DNA of 64,000 bases, taken from assembly GCF_037975245.1 (NCBI RefSeq), contig NC_092561.1:1958501-2022500 (forward strand), in the 5' to 3' direction. The DNA comes from Apostichopus japonicus. Taxonomy: Eukaryota > Echinodermata > Holothuroidea > Aspidochirotida > Stichopodidae. The first letter of the stretch is position 1. Each line of letters begins with the position of its first letter. Made by a program: the position numbers and the translations under genes. Positions 3,501 to 47,622 of the stretch are shown here, piece by piece. The notes below the pieces were generated by a model. That model saw only the letters and a list, made by a program, of their open reading frames with translations, made no database searches and was not told the DNA's origin.

Positions 3501-6500
3501 CATGAAAATACAACGACACGCCTGTAGGCTGGGGAAGGAAAATGGCGGGAAAACGTAGGCAGTTCGCGGAACTGCTATCCCCGCAAATAAAACCTAAGGG
3601 CGGAAACGCACTAGGAAAAACAGTCCCCAAAACCCTCCCTTTCAACAAAAAGGATACTTATCGGGCTGGAAAAGACTGCTACTGTAATACTCCTAAGAAT
3701 CCAAGGAAAGAAAACTTCCAACGATCGCAAAAAAAACCAAGACGAAATCCAAGGGAAATTTTTCCACAAGAAATCTGTGTAATGACACTTTTATTGGTAG
3801 AATGAGAAGGAAGGGCAGAGACCGGGGGGGGGGGTCCGGTCATAGAGGGCGCACAGTGTTACTATTTTACCAGGACTTAATAGGCACGGTAGAACGAGGT
3901 GCTTAGTTTGTGAGGAGACAGGTAAGCGAGGAGCAATGTAAATTAAAGAGTATACATATGTTGAGAACTAAGCATTCCTTTTAGGGGTCACTTTGGTAAG
4001 TGATGCTGTAACCCATACGGAAGCAGTATGTTAGCTTAGGTACCTTGTCAAAAATAGGATGCTGAGGGGGATGCAGCTTCCTGCAGCCAGGCTGACCTAG
4101 TACATAATATTATGTGCTGTGCAGTTTCACACAATAGACACTGCTGGTGTTAGGAGATAATCCCTATCATTTTGTATTGATTCAGCCTAGCTGAGGAGCT
4201 TGCAGCTGCTGCAGCTTTTCTTTTTGACAAGTTGCCTTTAACTAGTTAAGTTTGAGTATTAAAATGTGAAGATAATGTTGAAAATTAAGTTGAACATAAT
4301 AACAGCTTGTAAATGTTTGACTGAAGAAGAAAAAAAACACTAGCAAGCTGTCTTAATTTGAACTGTTTGGCCTATTCCTTTGTTGAACAAACTTTGGTAC
4401 CATTGATAAATTTGGGAAACAAACACAAAAAGTTGTTTAATGGAAATTTTACCAACAAGTAATCTGTCCTGAAGCATTTTATGTCCTCCTTAAGCCAAAT
4501 CTATCAACATCTTAAAAAAAAAAAAAAAAAAAAAATTTGGCTCCTTCCTACGACAGTAAACTTGGAATCGTATCACCCATAATGCAACCAGGCAAGTAGA
4601 TTCCAAAAGATGGAAAAGGGGGGACTAGGCACTTCTAGGCACCAATGGTAACAGGTCGTTAAGGGCGTGCAATGCTAAAAATGTTTCCAATTCACTGTAA
4701 GGCATGGCAGAGCTGGAATGGTTGTGCAGAGACAGGTAATGTGAAGAAGCAAAGTCAATTCATACCATCCATATTGTAGTGCTCCAGGATGTTCTCCCTC
4801 TTGGTTCATACATGTAACCTTTGTAGTATAGGAGAGCCTTCAAGGAGTACCTCAAGAAGATGATGATTCCCAACCAGAGAAACGAGGCAAATAGAAAACT
4901 AGAGATGAAGGTGCCGGTAAGTTTATTAAACGACCTGAGGGAGAAAGAGCACAACAAAAATTCAGAGAAAGAGCTGATTGACGACAGCTTAATGTAACTT
5001 CACGTCTCTCTTAAAGGTCATACTGTATTTAAGTATTTTGTGTTCCCAAATTTGATGAAAACTAAATTGGCCTATAAGATTTTTACAAAATTAGAATTTG
5101 TGAGTTTTCCAAAGTTTTCCAAAGAATCATTTCCTACAGATACCTGACCATTGAAACTATTTCCTTAGTTATGGAACTACTGTAACTGTGTCATTGAGAT
5201 CATATTCTTGGAGGCAGGAGGGATAAAACTTCTTGAAATTTCTTTCGCATCGAGCTGCATACGCAGAGCCGAGACATTTTTTTTAAACTGTGTTAATTTA
5301 TTCAATTTTTACAGCCAAGTGTAATTAAAAGACCTACTCTACAATATGTTGTTACACTACACTACTGTACATAGGTGTAGCTATAGCAACATACTATGAA
5401 AAATGGCCAGGTTGCTACAAAAATTCAAAGAGAAAATAGCAGTTTCTTTTGGTACAAGAATGGAGGAACCTATTTAGAGTTTATCTGTTCATTTCGGAAA
5501 CACAGTATGTACAGGGGGGACCACTCACGTACTTTCAACATTATTAAATGTACAATGGCATACAGGTCTATTCCATTTCTAAGGGACTAAAATGTGATAC
5601 CTCACTCCATGTAACACCATCCTCATCACACCATGTAACACCATCATCATCCCACCATGTACACCATCATCATCACACCATGTGTAACACCATCATCATC
5701 ACACCATGTACACCATCATCATCCCACCATGTAACTGGTCATCATCATCACACCATGTGTAACACCATCATCACATCATGTAACACCATCATCACACCAT
5801 GTAACACCATCATCACATCATGTAACACCATTATCATCGCACCATGCAACACCATCATCATCACATCATGTAACACCATCATCATCACACCAAGTGTAAC
5901 ACCATCATCACACCATGTACACCATCATCATCACACCATACAGTACAACACCATCATCATCACACCAAGTGTAACACCATCACCATCACACCATGTGTAA
6001 CACCATCATCATCACACCATGTACACCATCATCATCCCACCATGTAACTGGTCATCATCATCACACCATGTGTAACACCATCATCACACCATGTAACACC
6101 ATCATCACACCATGTAACACCATCATCATCACACCATGTAACACCATTATCATCGCACCATGCAACACCATCATCATCACACCATGTAACACCATCATCA
6201 TCACACCATGTAACACCATCATCACACCATGTAACACCATCATCATCACACCATGTGCAACACCATCATCACACCATGTAACACCATCATCACATCATGT
6301 AACACCATTATCATCGCACCATGCAACACCATCATCATCACATCATGTAACACCATCATCATCACACCAAGTGTAACACCATCATCATCACACCAAGTGT
6401 AACACCATCACCATCACACCATGTGTAACACCATCATCATCACACCATGTACACCATCATCATCCCACCATGTAACTGGTCATCATCATCACACCATGTG

Positions 6501-9500
6501 TAACACCATCATCACACCATGTAACACCATCATCACACCATGTAACACCATCATCATCACACCATGTAACACCATCATCATCGCACCATGCAACACCATC
6601 ATCATCACACCATGTAACACCATCATCATCACACCATGTAACACCATCATCACACCATGTAACACCATCATCATCACACCATGTGCAACACCATCATCTT
6701 CACACCATGTGTAACACCATCATCATCGCACCATGCAACACCATCATCATTACACCATGTAACACCATCATCATCACACCATGTGTAACATCATCATCAT
6801 CGCACCATGTAATACCATCATCATCACACCATGTAACAGCATCATCATCACACCATGTGTAACAGCATCATTATCACACAATTAGAGACTCAATGGGTTT
6901 CATGCCCAGACTCTCTCTTGGATGCCTCTTGTTAAAAAAGTACAGTATATAATAATATTCAGAATATTATGGCAACATTTGTCATGCATAATTTACAGCA
7001 TGCAAGAGTTACAGTTAATTGATTGCCACATTGGTTGCTAGTATATATATGCCAACAAATTCTGCACAAATTCTATACAAATTCTTGGGCTTTCTGTCAA
7101 CAGTGCTGGTTGAAACCTGTATTGATCAACACAAATCCTTGGCATTCAATTTGAGCAGTGAGGCTTATATTTCTTCCAATAGGTTATATTTTGAAAGATA
7201 CGTCATCATTGCCAAAGAATATCTTGTGGAATTTTTGAGCTTACCAATGAATATCACCTTCATAAGGACAAAAACAAATTCGGTGGTGCAATACCATTTC
7301 TGAAGATCACTTTGTCAAAGTTGGATTTTGTAATAAGAAGGACAAAGTTTAAAAAAAAAAATGTAAATACAGCATGTATTGCTATATGGTTAAATTGTTA
7401 TGACATTCTCTGTGTATTCAACTAATACACAAGAAAAGCAATTGTGCAGTTGTGAATATACAATACTGTATATATTTTTACATTTTTTTAAAATATAATC
7501 ACAATGCAAAATTAAAGAAGAACGATAGTGACAGAAAAAAAATCTCTCATTTTCATATATAATGTAGTTTGTAAGTTACCAAGCAACATATTTTTTTAAT
7601 TTTCCAAATAGCACACCAGAAAGTTATAAAAAAGGGTATTAAAACATCGTTTTTTCGCCTCCGTAATTTGGGAATTTGCAAACACTGCAACGACCTTGAA
7701 CAGCCCTCAGGTCAGTGAATGACGTCACTGTGATGATCTTTTTCTGTTGTGAACTGTTCAGTACGGAGCTGTGCGTGCATTTCGTGTCAGCATAACTGTT
7801 ATTTTCCGGCGTAATGTTCAAGACATAAATAGATAATGAATATCATAGTGTTTCTTGATTTCTTCACCACGTGTTTAGAAGGTTTTTTTTACGAAATTTG
7901 CGGCGATTTCGCAACGATTTCCCAATATCTGAAGAGGTAACTCGCAAGCTGACCCAAAGTAACGTAAATCTCAAGATCACGTTTTTGGCGGGTTTTATAC
8001 AGAGTGATGTATGAATGTGCTCTCTTACCAGTCAAACTGGCACAATAACAATAGTGATGATAGTCTCAAACGTAGATTAGTATAACATCCGAAAGAAAAT
8101 CCAAAGTTCTAAACAAAGTAGATTCGCTTGTATGCACTAGGCCTACTGTAAAACATAAACGTTCCTTGTTCCGTGCGTCATGAAATCCAACAGAAAGGTT
8201 TCATTGAGCTTGAAATACAACTGCATTTGAACTCAATCGAGTTGTTAGTCTAGCTCGAACAATTTTCTCACTACATGCAATGCCTATTGCGTTTATTCAC
8301 ATGCATGCCTCGTGGTTTGGGCTTCAGGAGGAATCGTATTCTAGCCCAACTTCACGTAGGTCCGCAAACGGTACTTTCACACTGTGCAAACATAAGTGAC
8401 AGTGTGCTCTACCGTAAGTAATACTTACACGATGTTTTGTTTCGCTCGAGCATACACACATTTCCTATTCGTATTACATTTAAAGTGGTTTGGAGGGTAT
8501 GAACACATCTCTGCCCCAAAAAAACTCTGCCTAAGCGACGTCCATGCCCCAATTGAAATTTGCACGTTGATTCTCTCCTCACATACCGTAGTCATTAGGT
8601 TGTTCACGTCTGACATGTCTTCCAGTTCTAACACTTACTGTTGCATTTATCGGGATATATATAAATAATGCGGCATAAAAGCATCAATCTTTCAAACTTT
8701 TATTACTTTAGTGACCTTGCCACACGCAAATTTCAATTGGGCCCGAGAAGCATCTTCTGTGAAGTGGGCAGAACAAACTTTCACATTCTTGCCATGAGAA
8801 ACTCCTGGTGCGATGAAGTCTTTCCTGGTTCTCCTCACAAATCGTATCCAGAGTTTCCGATATCTCTCACTACTTTTTCCGCTTGGAAAATTGAGAAAAC
8901 TTATTGTAGAGTCCACATTCATTCTGTTGCATCCCCTTACAACGCAATTTCTTGGATTTTGCTAGTGGTTTACGTTGTTTGTCGAGTCTAATATAGAGTA
9001 GGTTGCAACTAAACTTACACACTAAGTGCACACTGCTGAAGTACACTACGCCGAGCTCACGTTGTTATCATCATAATGACGTCACATGTCACTGTAGATC
9101 ACGTGATCATCATATCGCTTTTCGCGAAAAGCCCAATTTTTGTTTAAAAATCAACGAGTTTAGGAATTTTTTTTAAGCCTTTCCCAACATCGGATTGACT
9201 TGAATTTTCACATGTGTAAAATGGAAACCAACTACAATACTCTTGAATAGAATCGTATTTTTTCTTCGATGGTGAAAAATCACTATCGTTCATCTTTAAT
9301 ATAAAATAAGGTCATTTGAAAGAATTTTTCAGTGCTAGAGGATGGAGATCTCACCTTCACAGTAACTTAACAGTCAGGTTATGCTGTAATATTATATGAG
9401 GTCACTTTGAAACACTCAACACTTATCTTTTGAAAAAAACAAGTCACACTGTTTGTTTACATTCTAAAGCAAATCTATAAATGCAGATTACTTTATTTGC

Positions 9501-28822: not shown

Positions 28823-31800
28823 TCACCCGTGGGCAGCAGTTGCATTCACATAACACGGTACAGTAAACTGTGCGTCTCCTGTAGCTATTGCATTGATAGC
28901 GGAGTAAGATGATGATATCCCACCAACGATACCCACAAATATGATCTCATAATGTATAATCCACTGGTAGAGAGGCAAGGGTCTGTAAAAAAAAGATAAA
29001 ATTAGCAAAAAGGAATAGAGATGAATGGTTAAATTATCAAACTGACGCCCGCCTACCCCCCCCCCTCGTTCACCCCACCCCATTTATCTTCTCATTTATG
29101 CTCATCCTGCAATAAAATGAATTTGATATCTTCTCTCCCCGCCTTTTACAAAACACAGACTGTTGGTATTGAGACTAGCAGACTTGGTAAATAGCAAAGA
29201 AAGAAAATAAATTAAATAGCTACTACCTCGACCACGACGTCCTCGCCTAGTTTACACCCTTCCACCCACTCTACACCCATTTCAAATGCCTTGTCAGTAA
29301 AAGATTGCTACGTTTTCTGTCAATTGCCAATATTTGGGTTCAAATATGTTTATAAATCTATTTAGTTGAGAATGTCCTATTCAAGCTTTAAAAAAATGAC
29401 TATAAATAACGTGTCATTTTAAACTAACAGACCCATAGAAACTGATTAAGAAAAAAACTAAAGAAAGTATCAAAATGGGTGTAATCTCAGTGAAATGCTG
29501 CTCGTTATATTTTCTTTTGAAATATGAAAAGAAAACCCAAGGAAAACTAAAGGGTTTTACTTACTTGATTTAACTATATGAAATCACACATTTGATGGCA
29601 GCCCCAGACATTGACTTTTAAACTAGAATATCTTCCAAACGATGAGAGAGCCTTTTTTTCTAGAGTTCTGGGCGAGTTATTCATCACAAAATCTCTCTAA
29701 ATTAAACTAAAGATGGTGATTGGGTTCGATTTTCTTTTAAGACAAAAAAAAAGGTACGGTCGCAAAAGAAAACCACTGAACTTACATTCTGGAATAAGTT
29801 TGATTCGGACAGCTGGTGGAACAAAGTTTCAAATAAAACAGAGATGGAAATACAAATGTAAGGAGAGTCACTGTTGATCCACCAACAAGAGACAAAATGG
29901 CGCCGAACTGTGGTATCGTCTCCGCCACAAATAGGATAAGTCCCATTATAACCGTCCGATTTATGACTCGCTTCCAATTAAACGCTGCAGGTGAAAGAAC
30001 AAGAAACCACTGAAGTAATTACCGGGAAGGGGGAGGGAAGGGGAGGCAATGGGGAGGGGAGGGAATGGGGAGGGGAGGGAAAGGGAAGGGGGTAAGGGAA
30101 GGCGAAGAGTAAGGGGAGGGGGAAGGCGAAGGGTAATGGGCTTGCTTACATGTATATATGTGGGGAAAGGAGAGAACACGGAAGGAATAATTTTATCTAC
30201 CCCAGCGCCTGCCCCTCCCCCCTTTCTCTATCTGCATCTCTTTCACTTCCCATTGATAATCAAGCACTCTCCCTTTAGGAATAATGGATCGGTCCCATGT
30301 ATGAACTGATGAACATACTGTATAAGAAGAGAACAGTTACCCAGAAATCGAATAAGAAAATTTGGAAAAATTCGATTACCTTTATCAATTCCTAAGAAAT
30401 CTTCGACTTCTTGGCTGAGGGGGTTAATAACTATTATAAAGCCCATGATAAGATGCACGGTAATCAGACACGTAGCTGTGGTGGTCAACCAAGACGCCGA
30501 CAGTACACCTAAAATGTTGTCTTCGTTTTTGTCTCCATAGACGAAATAACCAGCCGTAGATACCGGTAAATACATGCAAACTATTCCTGAAATATTAATA
30601 ATAATAAAAAAATAATAAAAAAAAAATAATAAAAAAAAATGAAAAGTATAAATTAATTTGAGTACTTTAATCTTGGTATATCTGGTTCGGAATTATGTAA
30701 CAACACTACACAATTGTATACGGGACGCTGCATGTGAATTGTAGGATGCACTCCACCGAAAAAAAAACACATAAAGTGATGATGGCGGAATATATCTTGT
30801 ACAAATATCATCCTCTGTATATATAGATTGCCCACTCTATTTCCACGTGTGTTCGCATTGTCTTCCTCCCTTGCGGTAGCATATTCACATCGAGTCTATA
30901 TATAACCGCGCTAGCCCTCCTCCAGGAAAAAGTGTCGAACAGCATCCGGGGAAGTGTCGAAAAGCATACGGGGAACATCTTGTATCGATATTTTCATCGA
31001 AAAAGGTTTTTTTTGTGTGTGGCTGCGATGTCAGCGTTACACACATCGAACACATGTTTTGCGAAAAGTGTAACAAATGAGGCAAGTTTAGACCACTGTA
31101 GGTCCTCCAAGATCGGCAAACGAAAATTGTCATTGATGAGGCTATTAAAAGTCACAGAAACTTTGGGCTCCCATATATAGCAAAACGTCTACACAGAGGG
31201 TCATCGTACGGAAACTTGAAGGTGCCATAAATGGCCAACTTGTCAGCTATCCAGTGACGAGTGTAGGGTTTACCTAGTGAGAACTTCTACAAGGACTTAC
31301 AGACCACATCACTTTGGCGATATAGTGTTTTAGTCAATGGTGCTGTTATTTGGAAAATGGTACCTTGTTTTTACCATTCCAAAATAACGGACATTGGGGT
31401 GGGATGTGAAGCAGAATGGCAACACCTCTAAACCTCTGCGCTCAAGACATGTGACGTATTTAGAGTCTAACGACAATTCGACAGCATTTGTGTCGTTGTC
31501 TATCAAATTTTCGTTCCGCTATGTTATACGGAGGAGGACATTAAAGGTGATTTTCGGAAAGAGGAGGGCCGGGGGGGGGGGGGGGGTGGGAGGAGGAGGC
31601 GTGGTTTAAGCTTGCATTGACACTGTGCACCAAATAAAAGTGAAAGTAGCAGTCAAACTCACCTGCATACGCCACAGTTACAACTTTTGAGAAATCCTTT
31701 GGATTTCTCATATCATGTTGAATTGTAGGAAAGGCAGCATGTCCACCGAAGGCAAAGAGAATCACACCAAATGCTAGAAAGAAATCAGAGAACCCAGACG

Positions 31801-34800
31801 GAGGATAAGTTGGTGTTTCCGATGCATTCCGATCCAGCAGAATCTGAATGAACATGGCCAGACACGCAGTGGCTGTTGCACACATTGCACCAATAGCCAC
31901 AGGCCTGGAGAGTAAAATAAGACAAAAAAGCTGACATTAAATCAAGAAATTATCTGGAATGAAATAATTTGAATAGACCACTCATGTGCCTCGACAATAG
32001 GGAACCGTGCGGCCGTGTCCACCCCAATCATTTTTACAGCTACATATGGCAATTTCAAAATCCCTCAATAGTGTAACTATTGCTTTCGACTCTCGTCCCT
32101 CCACACACCCCCATCTTAGACATGTGTCGGGACCCCGTGCACAACATTGATGTTAAAATAAAAATATATCTATTAAAAACAACTTGACTCACCAGAAATC
32201 TTTAGGTGTCCCCAACCAAGTGATGGGCCATAAACATACGGCTATGATTGGTAGCAGAGCACAAAATGAAAAGTCCTTATGCAAAGTTGTAAGAAGCTCC
32301 TGTATATTTTCAGATGCTATGAGAAGAAACACTGTACCTACACCAAATAGTGTGGCATTGACACAAAATGAGACCAAATATCTAGAAGCAAATATAGAAA
32401 TAAGAGAGAGAGAAACTATGAAAGGATTTTAAATGTTCTCATAGTCACATTGGAGGACAAATTGAGTTAACACAATACAAATAATGAAAAACATGACGTC
32501 ATCGTATGCAAAATGGCCGCATGCAATCTCACCTTTCATTTAGCAATGTGTAACAATCCTCTAAGGCAGGGTCTCCCTAACTTTATGCCCCCACGAACCC
32601 CCTGTGGATGTCAGAGTTGTCCGTGAACCCCCAACTTTCGAGACTACTATAATACGCATGACAGTGCTTCGTAAAAGAACAAGTTCATAGTGTTGTAATG
32701 AAAAAAAAAAATAAGAGATGAACAAATATTTCATAATTCAGTTATTTATCATTATGTACGGTACGGTTATGGCAAGCCATATGGGCAATAATTCGACAAA
32801 CCGAGTTTATCGTTGACTTAAATTCGGTGCCTTTCCGATCCTTCCACACATAAAAAAAATTGTTTTCCTTTGTGTATCCCATTACATCCTTATCCCGGTG
32901 TCACTGTTACATCTAGTTTACTTCATAAATGAACTTGATCTACGGTATATTAACTCACCTTCCCTTATTTCCATACGTCTCATAGCCGATTGCAGGGTAT
33001 GGAAATCTGGTCTGTTGTTTGTATATTGGGAATCTGTCTTGAAGTATGGTCCAACACCGTCCAAGGATAAACCCGGTATATGCAGACATAACTGCACACA
33101 CTAGGATCATTACTATGCCTATCCATCCTAAAATAGAAGAAACATATGTTTATGTAAAGGATGGCGAATTTATGCAGACTTTCTAATTTTTAATAGTTAT
33201 AGTCCACGAAAGAATTAACTTAAATATCTCATTGTCAATAATTAGAAATTTTGAGTAGGGGTGATCATTTTCTAACTATTGGACATACTCGGGGGTTGGG
33301 TGAGGTGGGAATACTGATGACCTCTAACCTAGAAAAAAAGACTGCACGATCGTGGGGCAGATCAGTCTTGTATAATGGTGGGGACGCGTGCCTATTCTCT
33401 GATACTATCTAAGCGGAGCGCGACCATGGGCTCGCGCGTAGCGTACAAGAATTTGTTTGGCAAATATACCTCCCAGATCGCCGGAAATAACACTTCCCAC
33501 ACCCAATGATGCTCCCAAACCTCCTTAAGCTTGAGATCTAATGGCTTAGAAATTTAGTTTGGGGAAATACATGGGCGTCTGCAGAAAAAAACAATGGACA
33601 AATTTCAATTTCCAATTATCATGATTGGATATGTTTAATTTTCTATTGTCTATGGTTACAAAGGCTTGATCGCGTTAAGATATCCTCTCTGGGGAGGGAA
33701 GGGGGGGGGGTCCTCGATAGCATGAGCAGGTAAGATACTAGAACTTAGAAGGTCAAATGAGACTTAATCAATGATTGTCTCTTGTATGAATGGAAACGGA
33801 ATAACCGATGACAAGAATATATTCAAATTAGGTCAGTTGTTCTGAATTTTACCTGAGTCCAAAACTGCCTTTGGAAGAGCAAGGACCCCACTGCCTGCCA
33901 TTTCTCCAATAATGAATAGAGAAGCTGTTACAACCGTCAGACCACGAATAGTGTGAACCTTCAAAAGAATTAAGAGTCTCTTATAAGTGTACGGAAAATC
34001 TTACCGTTTAACGGTGAAGTTATACAGACGTAGGAACCGGTTGTGTTACCAGGAAGTTATAGTACCTACGAAAACGTTGACGTGGATTTGAATTTGGTCT
34101 ATCCCTGCATGTGCTCATCATCTACAACTATATAGTCCCCACCAGGTAGCTTGTTGTAAAAGTGAGCAGTTTCTCCCTATTCGCTATAGCTGTTACATCG
34201 TCGTTGCTGGTACATACATACAGTTAAAGGGAACAATATTATTGTATACCCTTCTAGCGCAAACTTGTATAGGTGTAGCTAGGGTCGAAAAGGGTGAGAA
34301 TTTGCAAAGCAGAATAAGAAATGTCGGATTAACTGTCCGACATCTTAAAGGGCAGGGCACCGGCTTCGGGTGAGGGGGTAAGTGTCCATTACCCCACAAT
34401 ATGTTTCGCAGCAATGACATTCGCAACAATGACTTTCGCGCCGCAAGTAAACATGGTGACACCAAAGCGAAACTTTTACCTTTACTGAACACTGGCCGCC
34501 CCTCTCCCCTCCGCCCCCACAAGCCCAGCCTCAATTCTGTGTCGGGTCCCGACTGTAAAGTATAACGGGGTTTATTTTAAGCTATAGTCGATTTCTTTTT
34601 CTGGAAAAAGCTGTCAGAAATAGAGTCATAGTGACGTCAACTTTGGGGATTGTAATTGCTTTCGATTTAGTTTCCGCAAGATCCCCCTCTCCTCCCCTCC
34701 ATTCCCCTCCCCCGACACCACAAGAGTGGTCACTTATTAGCCTAATACAGGCATAGATGCGTATGATACGTTATGGACTGAATGACTATGACATTATACG

Positions 34801-37800
34801 TGTATCGGTGGCGTCAAATGTGAAGGATGTAGAAAAATGATGACAATTTTCAGACTAAATCCGCAAGTTGCTCCGAATCTCAGACACGGGACCAGGGTCA
34901 ATGTGGGGCTGTGTAAAACTAACTGTTTTCCGTCCCATTTCCTATCTCCTAAATAAATCCACGGCTCAGAAGTCACCTATATATTTATATATTTAGTTCG
35001 GTGTATAGTGTATACTGATACATAAATACATGTACACAGATTTCCATGGAAAGAATACATGACTACACAGACAAGGGCGGCGGAAGCACTTTTAATCTGG
35101 GGGGCACCGACATCAAAGGGCACTTTGCAGAAATTCGATTGCACTGATGCAGCCTTATATTTAGTACCCTTTATAACTCTTATTGTATTATCTTATATGC
35201 GTATACACATCACTCCATCAAGGCCCCCCCCCCCCCCTCAAAGAAAATATGCATACTAGTACTGCAATATCCAATGTGCAAATTGGGAAACAAGTTTTGA
35301 GACAAAATGAGGTGATATCATGCTTGTTGCTAGTGTAGGAATCTTCCAAATTAGACATTATTTCTTGTTTATATCTTAACAATATTTTTCCATTCGAAAT
35401 AGCTTTGAGTTTGACCCACAGTTATTCATTAAAAGTCAGGGGCGTAGTAAAGATTTGCAAAGTTGTATGCACGACTATCTGAGCGGAGCGCCACCATCGG
35501 TTGGCGCGGAGCGTACAAGAAAATTTTTGGTTTTACAAACCCCTAAGATGGCCGGAAACGGCCCTTCCCGAGTGTTCATTGTGGTTCCCTAGCCTCTTGC
35601 TAACTTGAGACACCTCAATTTTTATGTAGAAAAAGGGCACATTTTTAACCTGAGGAAAAGTGGGGGGGGGGGCACGTGCCCCCTGTGCCCCCCCGGTTCC
35701 GCCGCCCTTGTACACAGAAATGTGTACCAGGAATGCTCGCCTTTTAAAAAATATCATTAGGGATGACTGGAGGCAGGGTAAGACCCAGTTCCTCACAGGC
35801 TCTTGACGGTTCGCCTTGGGTAATAATATATTCATCTGTAGGCCTATGTCGTGTCACGTGAGTCCTTCATGTAACTCTCATGTATGTATATGTATGTATG
35901 TAACTTAGATCCTCCTGCAAGCAGGAACTCGCGAAGAAGCCTCATTGGCTTATCAAAGCCGCAAGCTGACCGAAGTCAGTCTCTTACATTCATATTTAAC
36001 GTCCATGATTATGAATTGTTAATTGTCAATAACTCTGTAACTGGACGGACATACATTTAATCTGGGAGTGTCTCGAACCCGGGACCTTATGATGGAAGGT
36101 ATCGGCGTTAACCACTGAGCTAACACTCCAGCATGAAAGTACTACCTCGTAAACTCCGAAATATACCAGCTGTGTATGTACCGGTATCCTATACTGCAAA
36201 GGTGTCTTTTCGTGTGACGGAGGCTTACAAATCAACCGGCTCAAGTTTATAACAATTGGAGACAACTCTGTCTATATGTGGCTTCTAGATGAGAGCTCCT
36301 TTATATACTCGATGACCTTAGGAAATGTATATAATCCCTGTTTGTACATACATATCTCCGTCTATATTAATTTATATAACCATGTATTGGGATTCTGTAC
36401 GCTGCATCCATTCACTGGCATCTAAACTTACTTCGCCCTTTCCGTACAAACTGTACGTCCACGTGTAGTGCATGTGTAGACCGTTGTACAGTGTACAGTA
36501 GACCGTTGTACAGTAGACCGTTGTACCCCGTCATACTATAGAACAATATATAGTTCATGGAAACAACATGCCTTTGTGCATTTTAATTTCACTTTCACTA
36601 AGAAAGAGCCTGAAGAACATCATCCAATGAATGAAATGAAAGCTATAGGCAATCAAATAAAACAATGAGACGTAAACAGGATATTGTCCAGAAGAAATGT
36701 TAATTTTGTAGCCTTCTTCCCAAAGGGTTTACACTTTGGAATTAATAGTGCATCCACTTATATCCTCATATTCGGGTGTCTATAAAACAAAGACCTAAGA
36801 TCTAAGACCTAAGACCTGCACAACTAAGACCCTACTGCAAAAGTAAGACCCTACCAACTGCAAAACTAAGACCCTACATCTACACTAAACTAAAAACTAA
36901 ATTCCAAATTAAATTTTGCATCTAAAGACAATCGATTGTTGATCATTTTATAACTCAAAGGGGGAGAGCTATTGGAACGTCACCAGTTCGCTCTTTCTAT
37001 TGGTTAAATTTTTGGGCAAATCGGTATACTCCCCCACCTATCTACAAATCAAATTGGGCTTCTATACGTGCACATGCTCACCATGCAGCACAATGATGAA
37101 TAGTTTTGCAGTCGATAGGGTCTTAGTTTTGCAGTAGGGTCTTAGTTTTGCAGAAGGGTCTTAGTTTTGCAGTTGTTGGTAGGGATTTAGTTTTGCAGTA
37201 GGGTCTTAGTTTTCAGTTGGTAGGGTCTTAGTTTTGCAGTCGGTGGGGTCTTAGTTTTGCAGTAGGGTCTTAGTTTTGCAGTTGATAGGGTCTTAGTTTT
37301 GCAGTGGTTATTAGATCTTAGTTTTGTAGACACCCCTCGATCCCTTTTCTAAGCTGAAGTTACTAACAGGTGAGCGTTTCGAAGTCTGAAACTCGCAAGT
37401 ACAGCCTGTCCACCATTCTCCAACCCCTTTCTCATGAATGCATACATACCGTTTGTGGTCCTCCGTCTCTGTCGGAGAGCCTTCTTCGCACGAATCAGCT
37501 TGTCGAAAATTCAAAGTGTTAGCCATTGTAAAATGCTCAGGATTAACAAACTTGGAAAACTCTTCAACTTTCAGTTTAAGTCCTTTTATATCATTTAAAC
37601 GGTTGATCAAGGGTGATTATGATTTTTCGCAAGTAATTATATTATGCAACACAATATTACAGTGATTTCATCATTACATAGACCCGGATAGCCTAGTCGA
37701 TTCATATTTCACAAATAAATTGAGGTAAAAGAACAAAAGTTGAAACAGTTCAAATATCGGTTGCACTTATGATGTAAACTGATATCATGCTAATGCAATC

Positions 37801-38676
37801 TTTCAGGGGGTCTGAGAGGGTTCGCAAAGTTGGATTTCTGATACACCGAAGGGGCCCGTTAACGTTGCATTGACAAATACTACCAAGTTAGTCAAAACAA
37901 GTCTGAAAAGGCCGTATGGATATGTGGCGACGTGCAACATTCTATTGGAGTTACACTATCGTGTTAAATATGTTTACTAAAGCTTTTTATAACTGTCAAT
38001 GAGAGGGTATTATACGCACGTGTCACGATTGTGCAGAGTCCATCCCTGGTGCATTTGAATCTGACAATGTAGGGCCTAGACAAAATTACTACTTTTAGAG
38101 GCAAGAAAAGCCGTAATTAGAAAATGAATGAGTAACAAGCCTTTTACACACATTCACACCAGTAGAATCACTGTGGCTTAGTGATACAGACTTACGCCTG
38201 TGATACGAAGGTCCGGTGTTCGATTCCTACAATTGCTTAATGGGTCCCAAAAAAAGACGGAACAGGTCGTGAAGTATGGAACTTTTTCTGGTGTTTTGAT
38301 CTTTGTTAAATTATTGTATACCTGTCATACCAATTGTTACACATTCAGTCCATAATTGTTTATACAGGCGGCAAAAGCCTACAGTGGAATGACGGCCTTC
38401 CTATATAACTGTTTCGAAACTCTTGACATTCAATCAGTCGTCCATGGGCCTAGTTGGTTAGCGTGAAACTAAATTACAAAGAGTATGCCATTCTTCAACG
38501 GTGCAGGCTATATTTTCAATGACTTCTTGTGTATAGCGTTACGTACGAGCCTGCGGTTACATGTTTGAAACCTCTATAAAAAGTCCAGATCAAATATAAC
38601 ACGTAATACTTACATTGTCAGGGTGAACCCCGTTAATCAGTGGAACGTTTTCTAACTTGGCTTCGTTATCCATCAT
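28823..38676 (-). CDS. AAAP-family (SLC32/36/38-like) amino-acid transporter, complete, 444 aa
   Basis: Membrane carrier of the amino acid/auxin permease superfamily. Coding exons on the minus strand: 38676-38614, 33958-33853, 33127-32959, 32381-32193, 31904-31663, 30586-30380, 29984-29786 and 28982-28823 (TGA at 28825-28823). They total 1335 bp and all phases agree. The N-terminal tail ([16 protein letters not shown]) is followed by about eleven hydrophobic segments. Family motifs are [15 protein letters not shown] in the first segment (residues ~39-53) and [10 protein letters not shown] in the sixth. The short C-terminus ends NATAAHG. Substrate and membrane (plasma or vesicular) cannot be told. 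It resembles the invertebrate AVT1-like group more than classical PAT or VIAAT proteins. Intron 1 is 4.7 kb and holds a hAT, a SINE and part of a duplicated promoter region. An alternative first exon lies upstream at 41522-41439. Confidence 0.92.
33405..33512 (+). repeat. Copy of the AAGCGGAGCG dispersed repeat core
   Basis: Starts CTATCTAAGCGGAGCGC and runs through GTAGCGTACAAGAA to GATCGCCGGAAAT. Related copies lie at 26872-26985 (minus), 35473-35580, 47518-47622 and 48741-48842. Where boundaries are visible the copies sit in hAT elements, so this is probably a truncated hAT-derived fragment. It lies in transporter intron 2. Confidence 0.75.
35072..35710 (+). mobile_element. Non-autonomous hAT element (8-bp TSD TACACAGA)
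   Basis: Exact target duplication TACACAGA at 35064-35071 and 35711-35718. Inverted termini CAAGGGCGGCGGAA at both ends, followed inward by G- or C-runs. It contains the AAGCGGAGCG-type core at 35473-35580. No transposase. It sits in transporter intron 1. The perfect duplication suggests a fairly recent insertion. Confidence 0.88.
35880..36130 (-). repeat. tRNA-derived SINE, full-length copy
   Basis: Read on the minus strand it begins TGGAGTGTTAGCTCAGTGG (A box) and carries a B box (GGTTCGAGACAC). The body continues through CATAATCATGGACGTTAAATA and GAAGCCAATGAG-type sequence and ends GGAGGATCTAA with a TACATACA tail. A near-identical copy lies at 53141-53384. The tRNA-like head has no proper acceptor stem, so it is not a tRNA gene. 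Confidence 0.88.
36774..37335. mobile_element. Foldback element 1 with minisatellite arms
   Basis: The left end GGGTGTCTATAAAACAAAGA is mirrored by the right end GTTTTGTAGACACCC. The left arm is tandem CTAAGACCCTACTGCAAAA-type units (36795-36890). The right arm is the same unit inverted (GTAGGGTCTTAGTTTTGC, 37105-37330). Copy 2 of the segmental duplication lacks it at the matching site (about 41325-41331), so it was inserted, or lost from copy 2, after the duplication. Flanks CCTCATATTC and CCTCGATCCC may be an imperfect target duplication. Confidence 0.8.
37450..37526 (-). pseudogene. Alternative first exon A, copy 1, phase-broken
   Basis: ATG followed by [17 protein letters not shown] and a GTATGTATG donor at 37449, homologous to exon A of copy 2. 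A length difference of 7 bp within the exon leaves this copy ending in phase 2. Transporter exon 2 (33958) needs phase 0; spliced to it, the frame hits a stop within about eight codons. It is therefore probably unused or noncoding, unless it joins an exon I have not seen. Confidence 0.5.
38160..38240 (+). repeat. tRNA-like SINE head, copy 1
   Basis: A-box-like TGGCTTAGTGATA and B-box-like GGTGTTCGATTCC at tRNA spacing, but no acceptor stem. The same sequence lies at 42165-42245 in the other duplication copy, so the SINE predates the duplication. Confidence 0.55.
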
Positions 38677-38859
38677 TAGTATCGCTCACTGCTAAAATTG
38701 TTTCTATGATTTTTATACAAACCAGGACAGCCAGTTTTATGCTAAGTTAGATCTTCTATATGTCCTTTCGTTTCTTTACTTTGTTACAATACATGTCACA
38801 TGTCGATAGTGCTTGATCAGTATAGATATGTATATATATAGGCCTATGTATCCTACAAC

Positions 38860-39330
38860 TACGGAAGCGTAGAAGGGACATTGCATTGACGAGTTACCAA
38901 CTTGACAAAACGACAATTTTCTGCAAGTTGACGAGTTGTCGAGATGGTAACGTGACAAAATTCAGAAAATTGACGTTTTGACGAGATAACGGATCTCGTC
39001 AATGCAACAATGTTCTGCAAATTGACGAGTTGCACATTTACTACCATCTCGACAAGATGACAAAATTCAGAAAATCGACGTTTTGACGAGATAACGGATC
39101 TCGTCAATGCAACAATTTTCTGCAAATTGACGAGTTGCACACTTACTACCATCTCGACAAGTTGACAAAATTCAGAAAATTGACGTTTTGACGAGATCCG
39201 TTATCTCGTCAAAACGTCAATTTTCTGATTTTTGTCACGTTACCATCTCGTCAACTCGTCAATTTGCAGATAATTGTCGTTTTGTCAAGTTGGTAACGCG
39301 TCAATGCAATGTCCCTTCTACGCTTCCGTA
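38860..39330. mobile_element. Palindromic foldback MITE upstream of the transporter start
   Basis: Nearly the whole 471 bp folds on itself. The termini TACGGAAGCGTAGAAGGG match exactly as inverted repeats, and the direct flanks TACAAC at 38854-38859 and 39331-39336 are a 6-bp target duplication. The interior is built of tandem and inverted pieces around TGACGAGTTG and GACGTTTTGACGAGAT. It begins 184 bp upstream of the transporter ATG, inside the likely promoter. No ORF. The superfamily is not assignable from the 6-bp duplication alone. Confidence 0.85.
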
Positions 39331-39336
39331 TACAAC

Positions 39337-40824
39337 TGAGTTATAAAGGAAGTTCAAAGGTTGCTCACCAACACGTATCATTTTATAGTGTATTGTTGTA
39401 GGGAAGTCCCTTTTATGACATACATATAATCATTGTATAGTGCGCTGGCGCGCTACAATATTGGAATTACTAGCCCGCTCCATCATCTACGTTAATTAAA
39501 GGACCAAACACCGAACTTGCTTCTTCGATATCATGACCGAAATAACTTCAAAGGGGTTGCAGTAACAACAAAGAACCCTCCATTATAGATATGAACTACC
39601 AAGTTTGACCTTCACCACGCACTATACTGTGACAAGTGTTTTTATACAAATACAGTTGTTCTATAGTTGTTTCACGGTATATAACTTCAATATAACAGCT
39701 CACTGTATATAGTAGGTCCCACATCTTGACTTATAGTGGTGGCCGTCTAGCTATAGTCTAATATAGAAACAGAAACCGACAGCTATATAAGCTTCATAAA
39801 CTAGCTTTTTGCATCGTATGTAGATGTTCTCTTCACTGTTCCTGCTCAATCCTGACAAGTGTTCAGAAGAAAAAATATAGGTTGAAAGACCAGGGTGTGG
39901 GACGGGGAAGTGGGGGGTGTCAGAGAGGGCAGCACCCAACATTTTTAACTATAGGGATGCATTCTATGCGGCATTTTTGCATCATTTAACTGAATAGGGT
40001 ATATATGCAATGTTTCCAATGACACATCCTTCCAAACACGTGGTAGCTGATGGCTTGTCCTAAAGTTAGGTGTGGCACCATGACCGTTAGAGTAAGTTGA
40101 ACTCGGAGGAGAATCAAGTTCAGTATACTGAAATCCAATTCTTGCCGATTGCTCTCTCTGCAGGGTAGATTCTTTAAAGAAATATTCCGGTGGCTGGCGT
40201 TAATTCTTTAACAAACATAATGGCAACTTTCTGCATCTTTAGGTAAAGCCCACATCTTAAAGCAGGTTGTACGTGTTGAAGTTATGAATTATTCAAATCT
40301 GGTGGTATTTTGTTATTGCATCTGGCAACAACTAAACAGGTCGAATGATTTCACCGTGGCAACCGTAAATGGTTTTGTTTTTCTTTATCGTCACCACAAC
40401 CCACTTATGCGCAAATGTTAAAATTCTTAATACAGAGAATATTGACAGCTAAACAGGCATTCCCAATGAATCAAATTTCAAGGTTTGAAGAACCTCTGCC
40501 GTAAGGATATCACATATGTTATCTACTGTGGTCCACTACCTGGGTTATAAGTCAGTCAAAATAGATAACATTCATGAACCATACCAAGATATCGAGATCA
40601 TGGGGTTTTCAACTAAAGAACAAGTATAAAATTGTGGATTTGTTGTTTCTATAAATATAGTATATGGTACCTCGTCTGCCAAGGAAACCCTTTTCAATCC
40701 TCAATCTATTCACACCATCTGTAGTCTTAATAAATTTAGGCTCTGTAATATATACACGCATTAAAAAAATGATGATGGTATAGCTTGAAATATGTCCCCG
40801 GCGGCCAAAACGCTCATTTAAGAC
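39337..40824. other. Spacer between transporter promoter copies
   Basis: AT-rich sequence that is not part of the segmental duplication. No gene or element is recognised. Confidence 0.4.
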
Positions 40825-41129
40825 CAAGGGCGTAGGAACCGGGGGGCTGGGGGCGCCAGCCCCCCAGTGAAAAATGTGGAGGGCGGAAGTATCATTCCGC
40901 CCCCCGCTCCGCAAGTCAGAAAACCCCTTTTTCATTTCCAAATTGCATCTAAGGCCAGGTGAAAATACAAAATTAAGTTTACAAAATGGAGTGGGTGTTG
41001 AAGTGTGCTACATTGCACCAAATTGCATCTGAGGCCACCTGGAAATGCAAAAAATTCCCCTTAGACCCCTCCCCCAGGCCGGCCATCAGTCTTCAGCCCC
41101 CCACTCAAAAGTACCTTCCTACGCCACTG
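40825..41129. mobile_element. Short hAT MITE (8-bp TSD TTTAAGAC)
   Basis: Exact target duplication TTTAAGAC at 40817-40824 and 41130-41137. The termini are CAAGGGCGTAGGAAC at the left and, reverse-complemented, CAGTGGCGTAGGAAG at the right. The 305-bp body carries no ORF, and GGGGGCTGGGGGC-type sequence lies near both ends. Confidence 0.85.
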
Positions 41130-41438
41130 TTTAAGACAACGTACCAAAATTTAGTACAACGTCTACTGCATAAGTGAATTCACTGAAAAAAAAAAGATAG
41201 CATAAAAGCGGAAATAAAATCTAGGCAATAAAATGAAACAAAGAGACGTAAACACGATATTGTCCAGAAGAAATTTCAAAGTGTTTAGACTTTGGAATTA
41301 AGAGTGCATCCACTCCTCTCCTCGTATATTGCCTTTGCTAAGCTGAAGTTACAAACAGGTGAGCGTTTCGAAGTCTGAAACGCGCAAATACAGTCTGTCC
41401 ACCATTCTCCAACCCCTTTCTCACAAATGCATACATAC

Positions 41439-41522
41439 CGTTTGTGGTCCTATGTCCCTGTTTATCAAAAGAGAGCCTTCTTCGTACAAATCAGCTTGTC
41501 GAAAATTCAAAGTGTTAGCCAT
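41439..41522 (-). CDS. Candidate alternative first exon A of the AAAP transporter
   Basis: ATG at 41522 opens 28 codons, [19 protein letters not shown] onward to GPQT, ending at a GTATGTATG donor in phase 0. Transporter exon 2 at 33958 begins in phase 0, so joining them would give an intact protein with a different cytosolic N-terminus from MMDNEAKLE. The exon is about 2.8 kb upstream of first exon B, in the duplicated promoter region. Transcription is inferred; the open frame, the donor and the phase match are seen. Its counterpart in copy 1 has lost the phase. Confidence 0.5.
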
Positions 41523-42164
41523 TGTAAAAGCTCAGGATTAAACCAACTTGGAAAACTCTTCAACATTCAGTTTAAGTACTTTATTTGTATCATTTACACG
41601 ATTGATCAACGGTGGTTATGATTTTTTCGCAAGTAATTATTATATGCAACACAATATTATAGTGGTTTCACCATGCATGGTATAGACCCGAGATAGCCTA
41701 GTCGAGACGTATGACACAAATAAATTGAGGTAAAAGAACAAAGGTTGAAACAGTTCAAAGATCGGTTGCACTTATGATGTAAACTGATATCATGCTAATG
41801 CAATTTTTCTAGGGCACTGCGAGGGTCCACAAATTTAGATCTCTTATACCCCGAAGAGGCCCGTTAACATTTTATTGACTTAAACTACAAAGTTAGTCAA
41901 AACAAGTCTAAAAGTGCCGTATGGATAAGTGGCGACGTGCAACATTGCATTAGAGTTTACACTATCGTGTTAAATATGTTTACTGCAGCTTTCTATAATT
42001 GTCAATGAGAGGGTATAAAGGACGTGTCACGATTGTGAAGAGTCCATCCCTGGTGCATTTGAATCTGACAATACTGGGGCCTATACAAAATTACCACTTT
42101 TAGAGGCAAGCCAAGCCGTAATTATGAAAGTGAATGTTTAACAAGCCTGTTAAACACATTTGCA

Positions 42165-42245
42165 CCAATAGAATCACTGTGGCTTAGTGATACGGACTTA
42201 CGTCTTTGATACGACGGTCCGGTGTTCGATTCCATCAATTGCTTC
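42165..42245 (+). repeat. tRNA-like SINE head, copy 2
   Basis: Same tRNA-like block as at 38160, with TGGCTTAGTGATA and GGTGTTCGATTCC, carried here by the segmental duplication. Confidence 0.55.
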
Positions 42246-42354
42246 AAAGGGACGAAACAAGTCGTGAAACTTTCTGGTGTGTTGATCTTTAATAATTTAT
42301 TATATATCTGGCATACCACTTGCTACACATTCAGTTTATAATTGTCTACACTAT

Positions 42355-43839
42355 GGAACGCCAAAAGGACAACAGGTGGCGCTACTACTATAACCAAGAG
42401 GTGCTACTACCCTAAACAGGGGGTGCGTATACTACTCTTATTATGAGGTTCTACTACTCTTAACAGGAGGTGCTACTCCTCTAAACAGGAGGTGCTACTA
42501 CTCTAAACAGGAGGTGCTACTACTCCTAAGTGATGATGCTGCTGTAAAAAGGTGACGCTACTACTCTAAATAGGCGGTGCTACTACAGGCGGCGATATTC
42601 GCTCCCATATTCCGTGAACACAAGCAGATGGCGAAACTAGATGTACTAATTCTGATATCACCCTTACCTGGCAAAATTAGGCGTATGGGGAAACAAAGAG
42701 CCAGCTTCACTTTTTTGGATCGACACCCCTCCGTAAATCATTAATGACTATATTTTATATTTTCTTCCTTTTCTAAACTATACACGAAAAATAATTATAG
42801 GAATACCTAACACAAATTCTATACATGTTATTCTGTAAGCCTGTCCCGGAATGGTCAGCAACTAGCTACAGCTTCCCGGTCGATATAACTTTCACTAGCA
42901 AATTTTGAATGCAGCAAGCAATCAGCAAAAGGTTTTTTACTTAGCACACAAGTACGTTAATGTTCTTTAACTTGGGCAGGTAAAATTTGGCATGAATAAT
43001 ATTGCATCTAGTTTTACTTAACATTGTACTGGCAGACGGGTTGAAAGAGCCTTGTCTTTTGTTTCTCATGATATCATTTTGACTTCCATCCAGAAATTGT
43101 ATCCATTAAACTTTTCTGAAATGTGTTAAGCGGCAGAAAATTTCTTTGAAACATTGTATCTCTTTAATGCGGCCGAATGGCAGGTGTACGTATCCGCAAA
43201 AGAATAACCGGCAGATTTGTAATGGCATTATCCTTCACTGCGGTTTGCTTTGGAAACGGGTCGTAGTTACAAAGTAGATCGACCCTGTTTTGGATAGTAA
43301 CACCTGTTTAGGGTAGTATCATCGCCTGTTTAAGGCAGTAGCACCGATCCTGTTTAGGGTAGTAGCACATCCTGTTTAGGGTAGTGACACCACCTGTTTA
43401 GGGTAGTAGCACCTCCTGTTTAGGGTAGTAGCACCTCTTGTTTAGGGTAGTAGCACCACCTGTTTAGGGTAGTAGCACCTTCTGTTTAGAGTAGTAGCAC
43501 CTCCTGTTTAGCACCTCCTGTTTAGGGTAGTAGCACCACCTGTTTAGGGTAGCAACGCCACCTGTGGTCTTTTTGGCGTTCCATAATTAGCACCTTCCGT
43601 TTAGAGTAGTGGCGCCACTAATTTACAGTAGCTTCGCCGCCTGTAGGAGTAGCATAGTAGCATCGCGTATTTAGAGTAGTAGCGACAGCTTTTACAGCAG
43701 CATTGTCTCCTAGGAGTTGTAGCACCTTCTGTAAAGAATATAGTAGCACCTCCTGTTTAGGGTAGTAGCACCTCGAGTTAAGGGTAGTAGCACCTCCTAT
43801 TTAGGGTAGCAACGCCACCTGTGATCCCTTTGGCGTTCC
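42355..43839. mobile_element. Foldback element 2 with inverted minisatellite arms
   Basis: Begins TGGAACGCCAAAAGG (after TA) and continues with tandem units like AGGAGGTGCTACTACTCTAA (42390-42590). The right half carries the same unit inverted (GTTTAGGGTAGTAGCACCT, about 20 copies, 43300-43800). The terminal CACCTGTGGTC...GGCGTTCCA occurs twice, at 43558-43584 and in diverged form at 43813-43839, so the right end is itself duplicated. The central 700 bp have no ORF. Copy 1 of the segmental duplication has the empty site near 38358-38364. Confidence 0.85.
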
Positions 43840-44083
43840 CTACTAAACAGGTAGCAAAAGCCGCTACAGTGGAATGACGGCCTTCTGGTTTGGAACCTCT
43901 GGATATTCAATCAGTCGTCCATGAGCCGCCTAGTTGGTTAGGTTGAAACTAAATTTAAATGAATATGCCATTCTTCAACGGCAGTATATTGTCAATGATC
44001 TTTTATGTATATCGTTACGAGACTGCTGTTACATGTTAAACCTCTATATAAATTCCAATTAAAATATAACATGTAATACTTAC

Positions 44084-44160
44084 ATTGTCAGGATGAACCC
44101 CGAGAGAAGTGATTAAGGGTACAGAACGCCAACGAGGTTCCAATGGGCCCTTTCCCAGAA
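44084..44160 (-). pseudogene. First exon B, copy 2, without a start codon
   Basis: Ends VPLITSLGVHPDN at a GTAAGTATT donor (44083), clearly related to [11 protein letters not shown] of the working exon B at 38676-38614. Upstream the frame is diverged, has no ATG, and meets a TAA before a hAT terminus at 44187. The start was probably lost by divergence or by that insertion. Confidence 0.6.
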
Positions 44161-44186
44161 GAATTTAATATAGTATACATGTATAT

Positions 44187-44233
44187 CAGGCGCGTATCCA
44201 GGATTTTCTAACCCGGGGGGTGCGAATTACTAT
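44187..44233 (+). mobile_element. Left end of a hAT element split by the P-like insertion
   Basis: CAGGCGCGTATCCAGG followed by a G-run, then TGCGAATTACTAT. The same element continues after the P-like insertion at 47518 with ATTACTATCTAAGCGGAGCG. A possible right end (CCTGGATACGCACCTG) lies at 49399-49414. Confidence 0.6.
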
Positions 44234-44819
44234 CAGAGCCTTATATAGAGAGAGTTGCGACAACTGAAATTTGGGCGCCATTTTGGGGCCAAATGGGCAA
44301 CATACAGTATGTGTGGGAATGGGCGTTCAGGTGGATAGGGGAATTTTTCGATGGCATTGTAGAAGTGTGAGCGGGATTCTGGGTTTTATTTTTGGCCTGA
44401 TAATGTTGTGGTGCTTTTGGGCGCCGAGGCTGTGTAAGTAGGGCGTCGAGTGTCGAACGGGAGGGGGGGGGGGGAGGGATTGGCTGCGCTCAAGTTCAAG
44501 GGGATGAGGTTGGCACATTTGGAAGTCCAAATTCAACAGTTGATATTCTGGTACGGTAAAATTGTATTATGACTGGTTATATATCATATTGTAACACATA
44601 TTGCACAGTTGCGGAATATATACATTCTTCCATTGTTGCCATGGTAACCAAACAAAGCCTGTGATTGGTCAAAATTGGGATTAACTGTAACTTGAGCTAG
44701 CAATGGCTGATGAAGTTGATATTTGGACATGTGACTGGTACTGACATGGTGCACAGAATCATGAAGCTAGGTCTTTGAAAATTGGTTGCTATGGTAACTA
44801 AATGGACCAATCACATCAG

Positions 44820-44965
44820 GCTTGGGGCGATTACATCTGAATGTAATCGATTACGATTACTTGAGAATGTATGATTACGATTACGATTACAGCCTAAAGT
44901 TGAAGTAATCGATTACAATTACATTGTAATGTAATCGTGATTACAATCATGATTACATTGTGGTT
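44820..44965. repeat. GATTAC-rich block, likely a solo hAT end
   Basis: Dense GATTAC/GTAATC motifs in both orientations beginning after CAGGCTTGGGGCGATTAC. This resembles the subterminal repeats of a hAT element. No matching opposite terminus or target duplication was found. Confidence 0.5.
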
Positions 44966-46547
44966 ACTTGCACAATCCTCTGCATATCTGTTTAATATAA
45001 CTCTCTGCCGGGAAATAGGGCAATGAAATAGAGCAAGGGAAGGGTATTTACAGTATCATACGGACAAAATTGTGGAAGTATATCTAGAATTCCTACCAGG
45101 CATTACACATTTATGCCTTAACACGTTTAAGATGTGTAACCCATAAGTCCAGTAAAAAAATACAATTTAAACAGACAAAGAGTAAACAGACAAATACTAA
45201 AGTAAAACAAATGAAGATTTTCATGCAACATTTTATTTCAAATGTATGAAATACGAATAATAAATTGCAGCTGACAGGACTTTACCACCATAATATGACC
45301 CAAACTGGGTGCTGTAAGGAATTTACACTAATCTGGAACTCACATCGCAAATATATGGTATATGTGAGTAGGATATTTCAGCGTTATGAGAACTAAGCTG
45401 CTGCTGGAATTTGAGAAGATCTACTTCAGAATATTTTTGTATGAGAGTCAGGCTTTTATCTACGAATTTTATGTCTAATAACTTGAAAAAGCTGCATCTA
45501 TATACTATAGGATCCAAAAAGTCAGAAATTCTTCAAAATACCAATTGAGCCTCTATTACTAGGCATGGGCTTCTATTATTAATGGATAAGGTAATCGTGA
45601 CCAGACAACACCCCCCGGACAACCCCCCCCCCCAACAGAAGCATAAATATGTTGTCAGAAGTCGAAAATTAGAGAAGTTTTCTTTTTTTTGGGGGGGGGG
45701 ATTGCTGGGGGGGGGTGAGTTGCCCGCCAACCATGGTAAAATGCTAGGCCTAGGCTCAGTCAAATTGAATTTCCTGTGTTATGTCCTCTTTTGCTTGGAA
45801 CTGCCCGGTTGTAAGAATATGAATTAGGATCTGTATACTGTACCTATGTATGACATGGACAAACATGATTCCTGAGCCTAATTTGGCCTATGGTTTTCAG
45901 TTGACTCTGTTAGTTTTACCTGCTATCCTCTAACAGGACACAATGTTCTAGGAAATATTTTTACCTAGCCTACAGTGATATTTTAGTAACCTAATTTTTC
46001 AATATTATTTCATAAAAGATAGTGGAGTTCTGGACCAGTTCAATTCAAATCATCAAGTGCAAAGCAGAATGATTAATCATTTCAATGGTCTGCCAGATCG
46101 CCACCCAAATTTTCATAAATAATAAGCCGAACAAGCTCATGACTCAATGGAGCCAAGCAGTTTTTCATTAGGGGGCTAGGCTAGCCCTTGGTGATTTGTA
46201 TTGCACACTGTACTTCGTAGATCCCCGATTTGTCTTGCCACGCTGGAGCCTTCAATTTAAGGAATATACCCACTAAACTTTGCAGAGATATTTTTATGCA
46301 CCTTATAACAGATCTCATCCCAACATCGCAACTTTCTTGATCAGAACTTGTTAAAAATAGACAATTTTCATGCCTGAAATTTATGCTCTGTTTTCTGTGA
46401 TGTTAACTATGCGTGTATGTACACTGCACAGTGCACCATACATAGCTGTAAGGACTGTGTGGTGTAACCCAAAGTCCTGGTTATCAGGGATGTAAGTGCA
46501 GCCAAAAAAAACCCGGAAAACTATTCGGAGAAACCGGGGGAATGTCG

Positions 46548-46690
46548 TCCTAACGCATCCTACTCCTAGCTCTGAATACTTACGCACTATCGTTATGTTA
46601 GGCTAGCTCAAAAGTATTAGCGCTCTAACACATCATACCCCTATTTCTGACTACTTACACACTATCGTTATGTTAGGCTAGCTCCAAGTA
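46548..46690. repeat. Tandem duplication, about 75-bp period
   Basis: Two adjacent copies sharing ACTATCGTTATGTTAGGCTA, inside the P-like transposon. Confidence 0.75.
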
Positions 46691-47212
46691 ACGAATACGT
46701 CGCAGCGAAATCCGGAATAAAAAACAGTCTCACATCTGAAAGCGATCACGAATATCGACTATCATATGCGTATCCTGTAGATTTAGCCGCTCACAAATAT
46801 CACAAGCGTTATTTCCGAAACTTATGTCGAGCACCAGCAGTTACGAATCAACGTGAATTAGGCAAGGTTTTTCAACGACAGAAATGAGCTATGGCGATTT
46901 GAAGTTCGCACGTACGCAACGATGTTCACATGGCACACACGATGTTGTACAGTGCAATGCGATGTGTAACAGGAAATGGTATTTTGGTTGATCGATGAGT
47001 GAAAATTGAAGTTAGCTTGCTGCAACGGGCCAGGCATTTTGCCGCGTTGTGTATTTGATATTTGTACAATTTTGTGGAACTTTATTGGAATTAAAAAAAA
47101 AACCGGATTTCCGTAAAAATACGGAAGACTTACATCCCTGTGGTTATGGACTAGGCTAGGCCTAGTGTTACGAATCTTAGTTCATTGTACTAGGCCTAGG
47201 TGAAGTACTCAC

Positions 47213-47517: not shown

Positions 47518-47622
47518 ATTACTATCTAAGCGGAGCGCCACCATCGGTTGGCGCGGAGCGTACAAGAAAATTTCTGGTTTTGATACCCCCCAGATCACCG
47601 GAAATGACACTTCTCGGGCTTG
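47518..47622 (+). repeat. AAGCGGAGCG repeat core interrupted by the P-like element
   Basis: CTATCTAAGCGGAGCGCCACC through GCGTACAAGAAAATTT to CACCGGAAATGACACTT. It joins the short left piece at 44187-44233 once the P-like element and one target-duplication copy are removed. Confidence 0.8.

Follow-up and report, generated by a model that had tools for sequence, protein, structure and literature searches.

A stretch of 64,000 nucleotides of the Apostichopus japonicus genome (C1:1958501-2022500, contig NC_092561.1; hereafter the window) carries a gene for an Aa_trans amino acid transporter whose start region is partly duplicated: as the original prediction had claimed, a block of about 2 kb occurs twice upstream of the gene, beyond chance. 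With about even confidence, we suggest that the block arose by a partial tandem duplication and that the coding use of one of two alternative starts, A, then moved to the upstream copy, the other start, B, having stayed single.

In this model, the gene would start with either of two coding first exons, A or B. Each would encode a short N-terminus that lies in the cytosol and contains an acidic dileucine motif, and each would join the shared transporter body in phase 0. A piece of about 2 kb, reaching from inside exon B across a promoter and exon A as far as intron 1, would have been copied once, long ago, from copy 1 to copy 2, with copy 2 now located upstream of copy 1 at a distance of a few kb. 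In this way B would have stayed single, only its tail having been copied (B2), and A, presumed intact in the ancestor, would have become double (A1 and A2). Afterwards the reading frame and the LL motif would have disappeared from A1 but persisted in A2. An A-type protein, if made, would come from A2 and a B-type protein from B1.

The transporter gene and the duplicated block

The gene lies on the minus strand and its body (28823..33958) consists of seven exons (33958-33853, 33127-32959, 32381-32193, 31904-31663, 30586-30380, 29984-29786 and 28982-28823) with GT/AG junctions and a spliced open frame of 423 residues. This frame matches the Pfam profile Aa_trans (PF01490) over nearly its full length (E 4.2e-73, profile positions 2-392 of 410), and the predicted product belongs to the Aa_trans/AAAP amino acid transporters; five PDB sequences were matched by it, namely auxin transporters and proton-coupled amino acid transporter 1.

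Self-alignment placed copy 1 of the block at 36633..38632 and copy 2 at 41211..44102, both on the minus strand. The copies align in three stretches, 37343-38365/41332-42351 (85.5% identity), 38361-38632/43844-44102 (80.5%) and 36633-36771/41211-41327 (74.8%), and differ at 171 of 1372 ungapped sites (12.5%), a few of these differences probably reflecting an alignment slip just before exon A. Divergence is even across the block, with Kimura two-parameter (K2P) distances between the copies of 0.148 (B side), 0.134 (A side) and 0.141; this evenness and the positions of the homology edges favor the proposed partial duplication. In genome searches covering 671,581,487 bases in 35 contigs, the A block was matched at full length at copies 1 and 2 only (among the best 40 of 782 candidates), and the exon-B piece was found at two places, itself and copy 2.

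Each copy also carries a foldback-like insertion of its own: 36772..37342 in copy 1 only, with inverted ends GGGTGTCTAYAAAAC and subrepeats of ~19 bp, and 42352..43843 in copy 2 only, with inverted ends GGAACGCCAAA and 22-bp subrepeats. A dispersed repeat identified by genome search (37982..38347, minus strand) sits within the stretch common to both copies and is therefore probably older than the copying. Upstream of copy 2 lies a young repeated element (44229..46224) that is about 95-99% identical to other genomic places (best 40 of 610 candidates in the genome search). In most of nine loci that were compared its start is at 44229, 126 bp upstream of the homology edge of copy 2, and it ends at about 46224; some of these loci cover only part of it, one also matches 46305-46800 and one extends to 44183.

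The flanks of the two copies show no further homology joining them in a self-comparison of the window (matches above 60 bits). A tandem duplication of the whole gene followed by loss of one body was considered and is unsupported: within the window, the transporter protein matches its own seven exons plus three places with E of at least 5.

Exons A and B in the two copies

First exon B1 (38614..38676, minus strand) is intact, in agreement with the original prediction, and comprises 63 nt or 21 codons, ending at the donor AAT/GTAAGT in phase 0 with exon 2. A TATA-like box (38712..38717, minus strand) begins 41 nt before its ATG. About 180 bp upstream of B1 there is also a large imperfect palindrome (38860-39330), 81% identical to its own reverse complement and containing subrepeats of about 105 bp.

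Its counterpart in copy 2, B2 (44084..44102, minus strand), is a tail fragment of exon B followed by the donor GTAAGT, and it has no ATG. The homology of exon B between the copies has its edge at 44102/38632, inside the exon, so that the common stretch is just 19 bases long, CGGGGTTCAYCCTGACAAT; upstream of this edge the DNA shows no similarity, since under one scoring scheme 94% and under another 99% of random places score as high. Because the edge falls inside exon B, copy 2 probably lacked a complete exon B from the outset, and a loss of the ATG from B2, as had been proposed, is not demonstrable. Since the ATG and the TATA-like box of B1 lie outside the shared block, copy 1 looks like the native context of B. 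The sequence comparison suggests that exon B probably never existed twice in complete form and that only exon A is clearly doubled.

Exon A1 (37450..37526, minus strand) was correctly predicted to be out of phase: it measures 77 nt, is off-frame at its donor GTATGT and reaches a stop after 32 residues. A second GT 4 nt downstream brings the frame back (...EDHKRY/VHT), giving a peptide without LL, but this donor is weak, with a computed U1 duplex of -1.9 kcal/mol vs -7.4 kcal/mol for the first. Tandem donors by which exons are extended by a few nucleotides have been reported for human genes in passages of PMC2423196. Being off-frame at the first donor and without LL under either splice choice examined, A1 appears to be a damaged A. 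First exon A2 (41439..41522, minus strand) is intact as predicted, with 84 nt or 28 codons and the donor ACG/GTATGT in phase 0 with exon 2. A2 and B1 are two ATG exons with donors that, as predicted from the sequence, join one exon 2 in frame, the arrangement of alternative first exons.

The two copies of exon A also differ upstream. A1 has the TATA-like box TATAAAAG (37583..37590, minus strand), which begins 64 nt before its ATG and is changed to TACAAATAAAG in copy 2; A2 has GATACAAATAAAG at this position and no TATA box within 120 nt. Exon A has in this way its TATA box in copy 1 and its reading frame in copy 2. The hexamer TATAWA is so common on this strand (2.3 per kb) that each TATA-like box alone is weak evidence. 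Estimated from TATA spacing, transcription would begin near 38690 for B1, near 37560 for A1 and near 41555 for A2.

Acidic dileucine motifs in first exons

The predicted A2 and B1 proteins each have an acidic dileucine motif, [DE]xxxL[LI], in the N-terminal tail (EEGSLL and ENVPLI, respectively), a tail that by analogy with the family would be cytosolic. Signals of this type are described in lysosomal membrane proteins in passages of PMC5297682. In the region upstream of exon 2 (33959-46500, 12,542 bases), we found three phase-0 first-exon candidates (45-150 nt, strong donor); because 200 dinucleotide shuffles average 1.7, the mere count is unremarkable. Candidates that also bear the motif number two, against 0.055 per shuffle. 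On both strands of a larger set of 177,640 bases, five of 76 distinct ATG-to-strong-donor candidates carry the motif, namely A2, B1, an exon of the paralog at 2.472 Mb and two others. This set held 24 sequences, 17 of them loci fetched for the repeats; 28 of 51 loci had been dropped beforehand as lying inside the window, overlapping others or coming from the near-identical paralog at 2.430 Mb. By hand reckoning, the motif would occur in two of two exons by chance with a probability of ~0.0035, a figure to be read with the motif having been noticed post hoc.

When the genome was searched with the transporter protein, 22 matches came up: seven lie in the gene itself, 14 in three multi-exon paralogs and a single one on C3 (E 1.7e-5). 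In the paralogs at C10 8.384 Mb and C1 2.472 Mb, the frame of exon 2, with acceptors read by eye, continues in phase 0 immediately ahead of the first membrane span, and candidate upstream first exons encode EDDNLL (with a TATA box 55 nt before its ATG) and EDDQLI (no TATA box found). The occurrence of the motif in A2, B1 and these candidate first exons supports A2 and B1 as coding. Given that both intact starts share the motif class, the predicted isoforms are more likely to differ in tissue or timing than in destination, which suggests that expression sets them apart more than sorting does. An N-terminal first exon with a dileucine motif may be a feature that this group of transporters shares in the genome, and short first exons, which gene prediction can overlook, would thereby gain a concrete function open to testing.

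The third paralog, located at 2.430 Mb on C1, is a recent copy of that at 2.472 Mb and has an identical exon-1 peptide. The two lie about 42 kb apart, and their identity is 98.75% in the region of exon 1 and 95.5% in that of exon 2; judging from these identities, the pair is a recent tandem duplication spanning at least most exons.

Alternative explanations and known systems

Several observations weigh against a working A2 beside a B that was always single. A2 is without the TATA box that A1 has kept; a scan of the block for conserved islands found none that is significant (best P 0.052 at 90 nt); and the first 51 nt of exon A contain two changed sites (P 0.038, uncorrected), both nonsynonymous, so that selection at the protein level is invisible. 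The residues VPLI in front of B2 would hint at a once longer B2. The paralog first exons were picked partly by the motif, from six and two phase-0 candidates with GTRAG donors in about 19 and 16 kb, respectively, and one other of the six C10 candidates also matches it (EIYFLL); owing to this selection, these exons speak for a family trait without establishing it. Neither exon A nor any promoter island shows a significant sign of selection beyond the uncorrected value.

In the main alternative, which is possible if doubtful, B1 would be the sole working start and both copies of A would be remnants, in decay, of an old alternative promoter. A1 would have decayed by frameshift and A2 by loss of its TATA box, with the apparent reciprocity a neutral coincidence. 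The even divergence over the block (K2P 0.134-0.148), the island scan, the two nonsynonymous changes out of two and the separation of TATA box and frame between the A copies all favor this explanation, and if A2 is not transcribed, the case would be one of ordinary decay. However, A2 has remained fully open and in phase 0 and still has a good donor and the motif found in the paralog candidates, despite about 0.14 substitutions per site, and many promoters have no TATA box.

The original prediction was of reciprocal breakage, i.e. that both promoters were copied complete and that a different half was lost in each copy by duplication, degeneration and complementation. The intact first exons B1 and A2 do lie in different copies, and this part holds, but complementary loss is unlikely: the DNA homology ends inside exon B with nothing similar upstream, and for A it is the copy with the broken exon that has retained the TATA box. 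The prediction also had B2 retaining both VPLI and its donor. The donor is indeed present, whereas VPLI matches without DNA similarity, for which reason we reject it as proof of a once complete B2. At the residue level the match is unusual, 23 of 31970 places scoring as high (with offsets of up to 4 residues free and the match noticed post hoc), a rarity that speaks for complementary loss; if homologous, their 12 bases would carry five changes, all silent, against 12.5% as the rule (P 0.011). VPLI is probably, though not certainly, a chance match.

Quite unlikely is a continued use of A1, in which a TATA-driven transcript spliced at the weak second donor would give an in-frame transporter without the dileucine motif. 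If true, the partial duplication would have produced a sorted/unsorted pair, with A2 and B1 directed to endolysosomes and A1 to the cell surface, and a new sorting switch would have arisen from a frameshift and a tandem donor. A haplotype split or other assembly duplication, which had been named as a possible refutation, is very unlikely indeed and is rejected, since, considerable as the published heterozygosity of the species is (according to passages of PMC5638244, a k-mer formula gives 1.59%, simulation about 2% and read mapping 0.73%), the divergence of 12.5% is six to eight times the k-mer figures, the flanks are unrelated on both sides, the window is free of N and the assembly is of the PacBio HiFi/Hifiasm type (as given in passages of PMC10344927).

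Elsewhere in the window, the plus strand carries a proteasome alpha-subunit N-terminal signature (PF10584, 50733-50993), which we take to be PSMA1. The minus strand carries a carnitine acyltransferase exon (PF00755, 2354-2659) and two THAP-domain fragments (PF05485, 8695-8961 and 47180-47458). A 24-bp minisatellite at 5602-6879 has about 53 copies and a higher-order period of 428 bp, and a 94-nt repeat is present in three copies (33403-33496, 35473-35566 and 47520-47613). Rfam and tRNA scans of the window at default thresholds gave no match.

The partial duplication with a moved start A, which we favor, can be compared with known systems. In UGT1A and the clustered protocadherins, large arrays of complete, duplicated first exons stand over a common downstream body, unlike the one partial copy found here. 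Among the open-licence papers found that combine alternative first exons and tandem duplication or subfunctionalisation, or that treat duplicated first exons or promoters, none concerns this gene family, judging by titles and abstract openings. GLUT8, a sugar transporter of an unrelated family, has the motif EXXXLL, which likewise conforms to [D/E]XXXL[L/I] and takes part in intracellular transporter sorting; its N-terminal position is given in passages of PMC3883675. As described in the same passages, the GLUT9 forms SLC2A9-S and SLC2A9-L differ only at the N-terminus and in membrane localisation, and the dileucine of SLC2A9-L has no effect on localisation, which is a caution for a sorting role of the motifs in A2 and B1; these passages describe no duplicated block, unlike the transporter here. 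The nearest mechanistic parallel found is mouse TPC1, an endolysosomal membrane protein in which, according to passages of PMC4386455, an alternative promoter (Tpcn1A/Tpcn1B) alters the cytosolic N-terminus and its dileucine motif, the N-terminal tail not being the sole determinant of localisation. In both genes, alternative starts, here predicted ones, bear on an N-terminal dileucine motif. One form of TPC1 is without this motif, whereas here both intact starts carry it and the promoter region is partly duplicated. Set beside these systems, the transporter gene is an unusually readable, not a fundamentally new, case of alternative gene starts, and a compact example in which a start region rather than a whole gene was copied and usable-looking and broken first exons adjoin.

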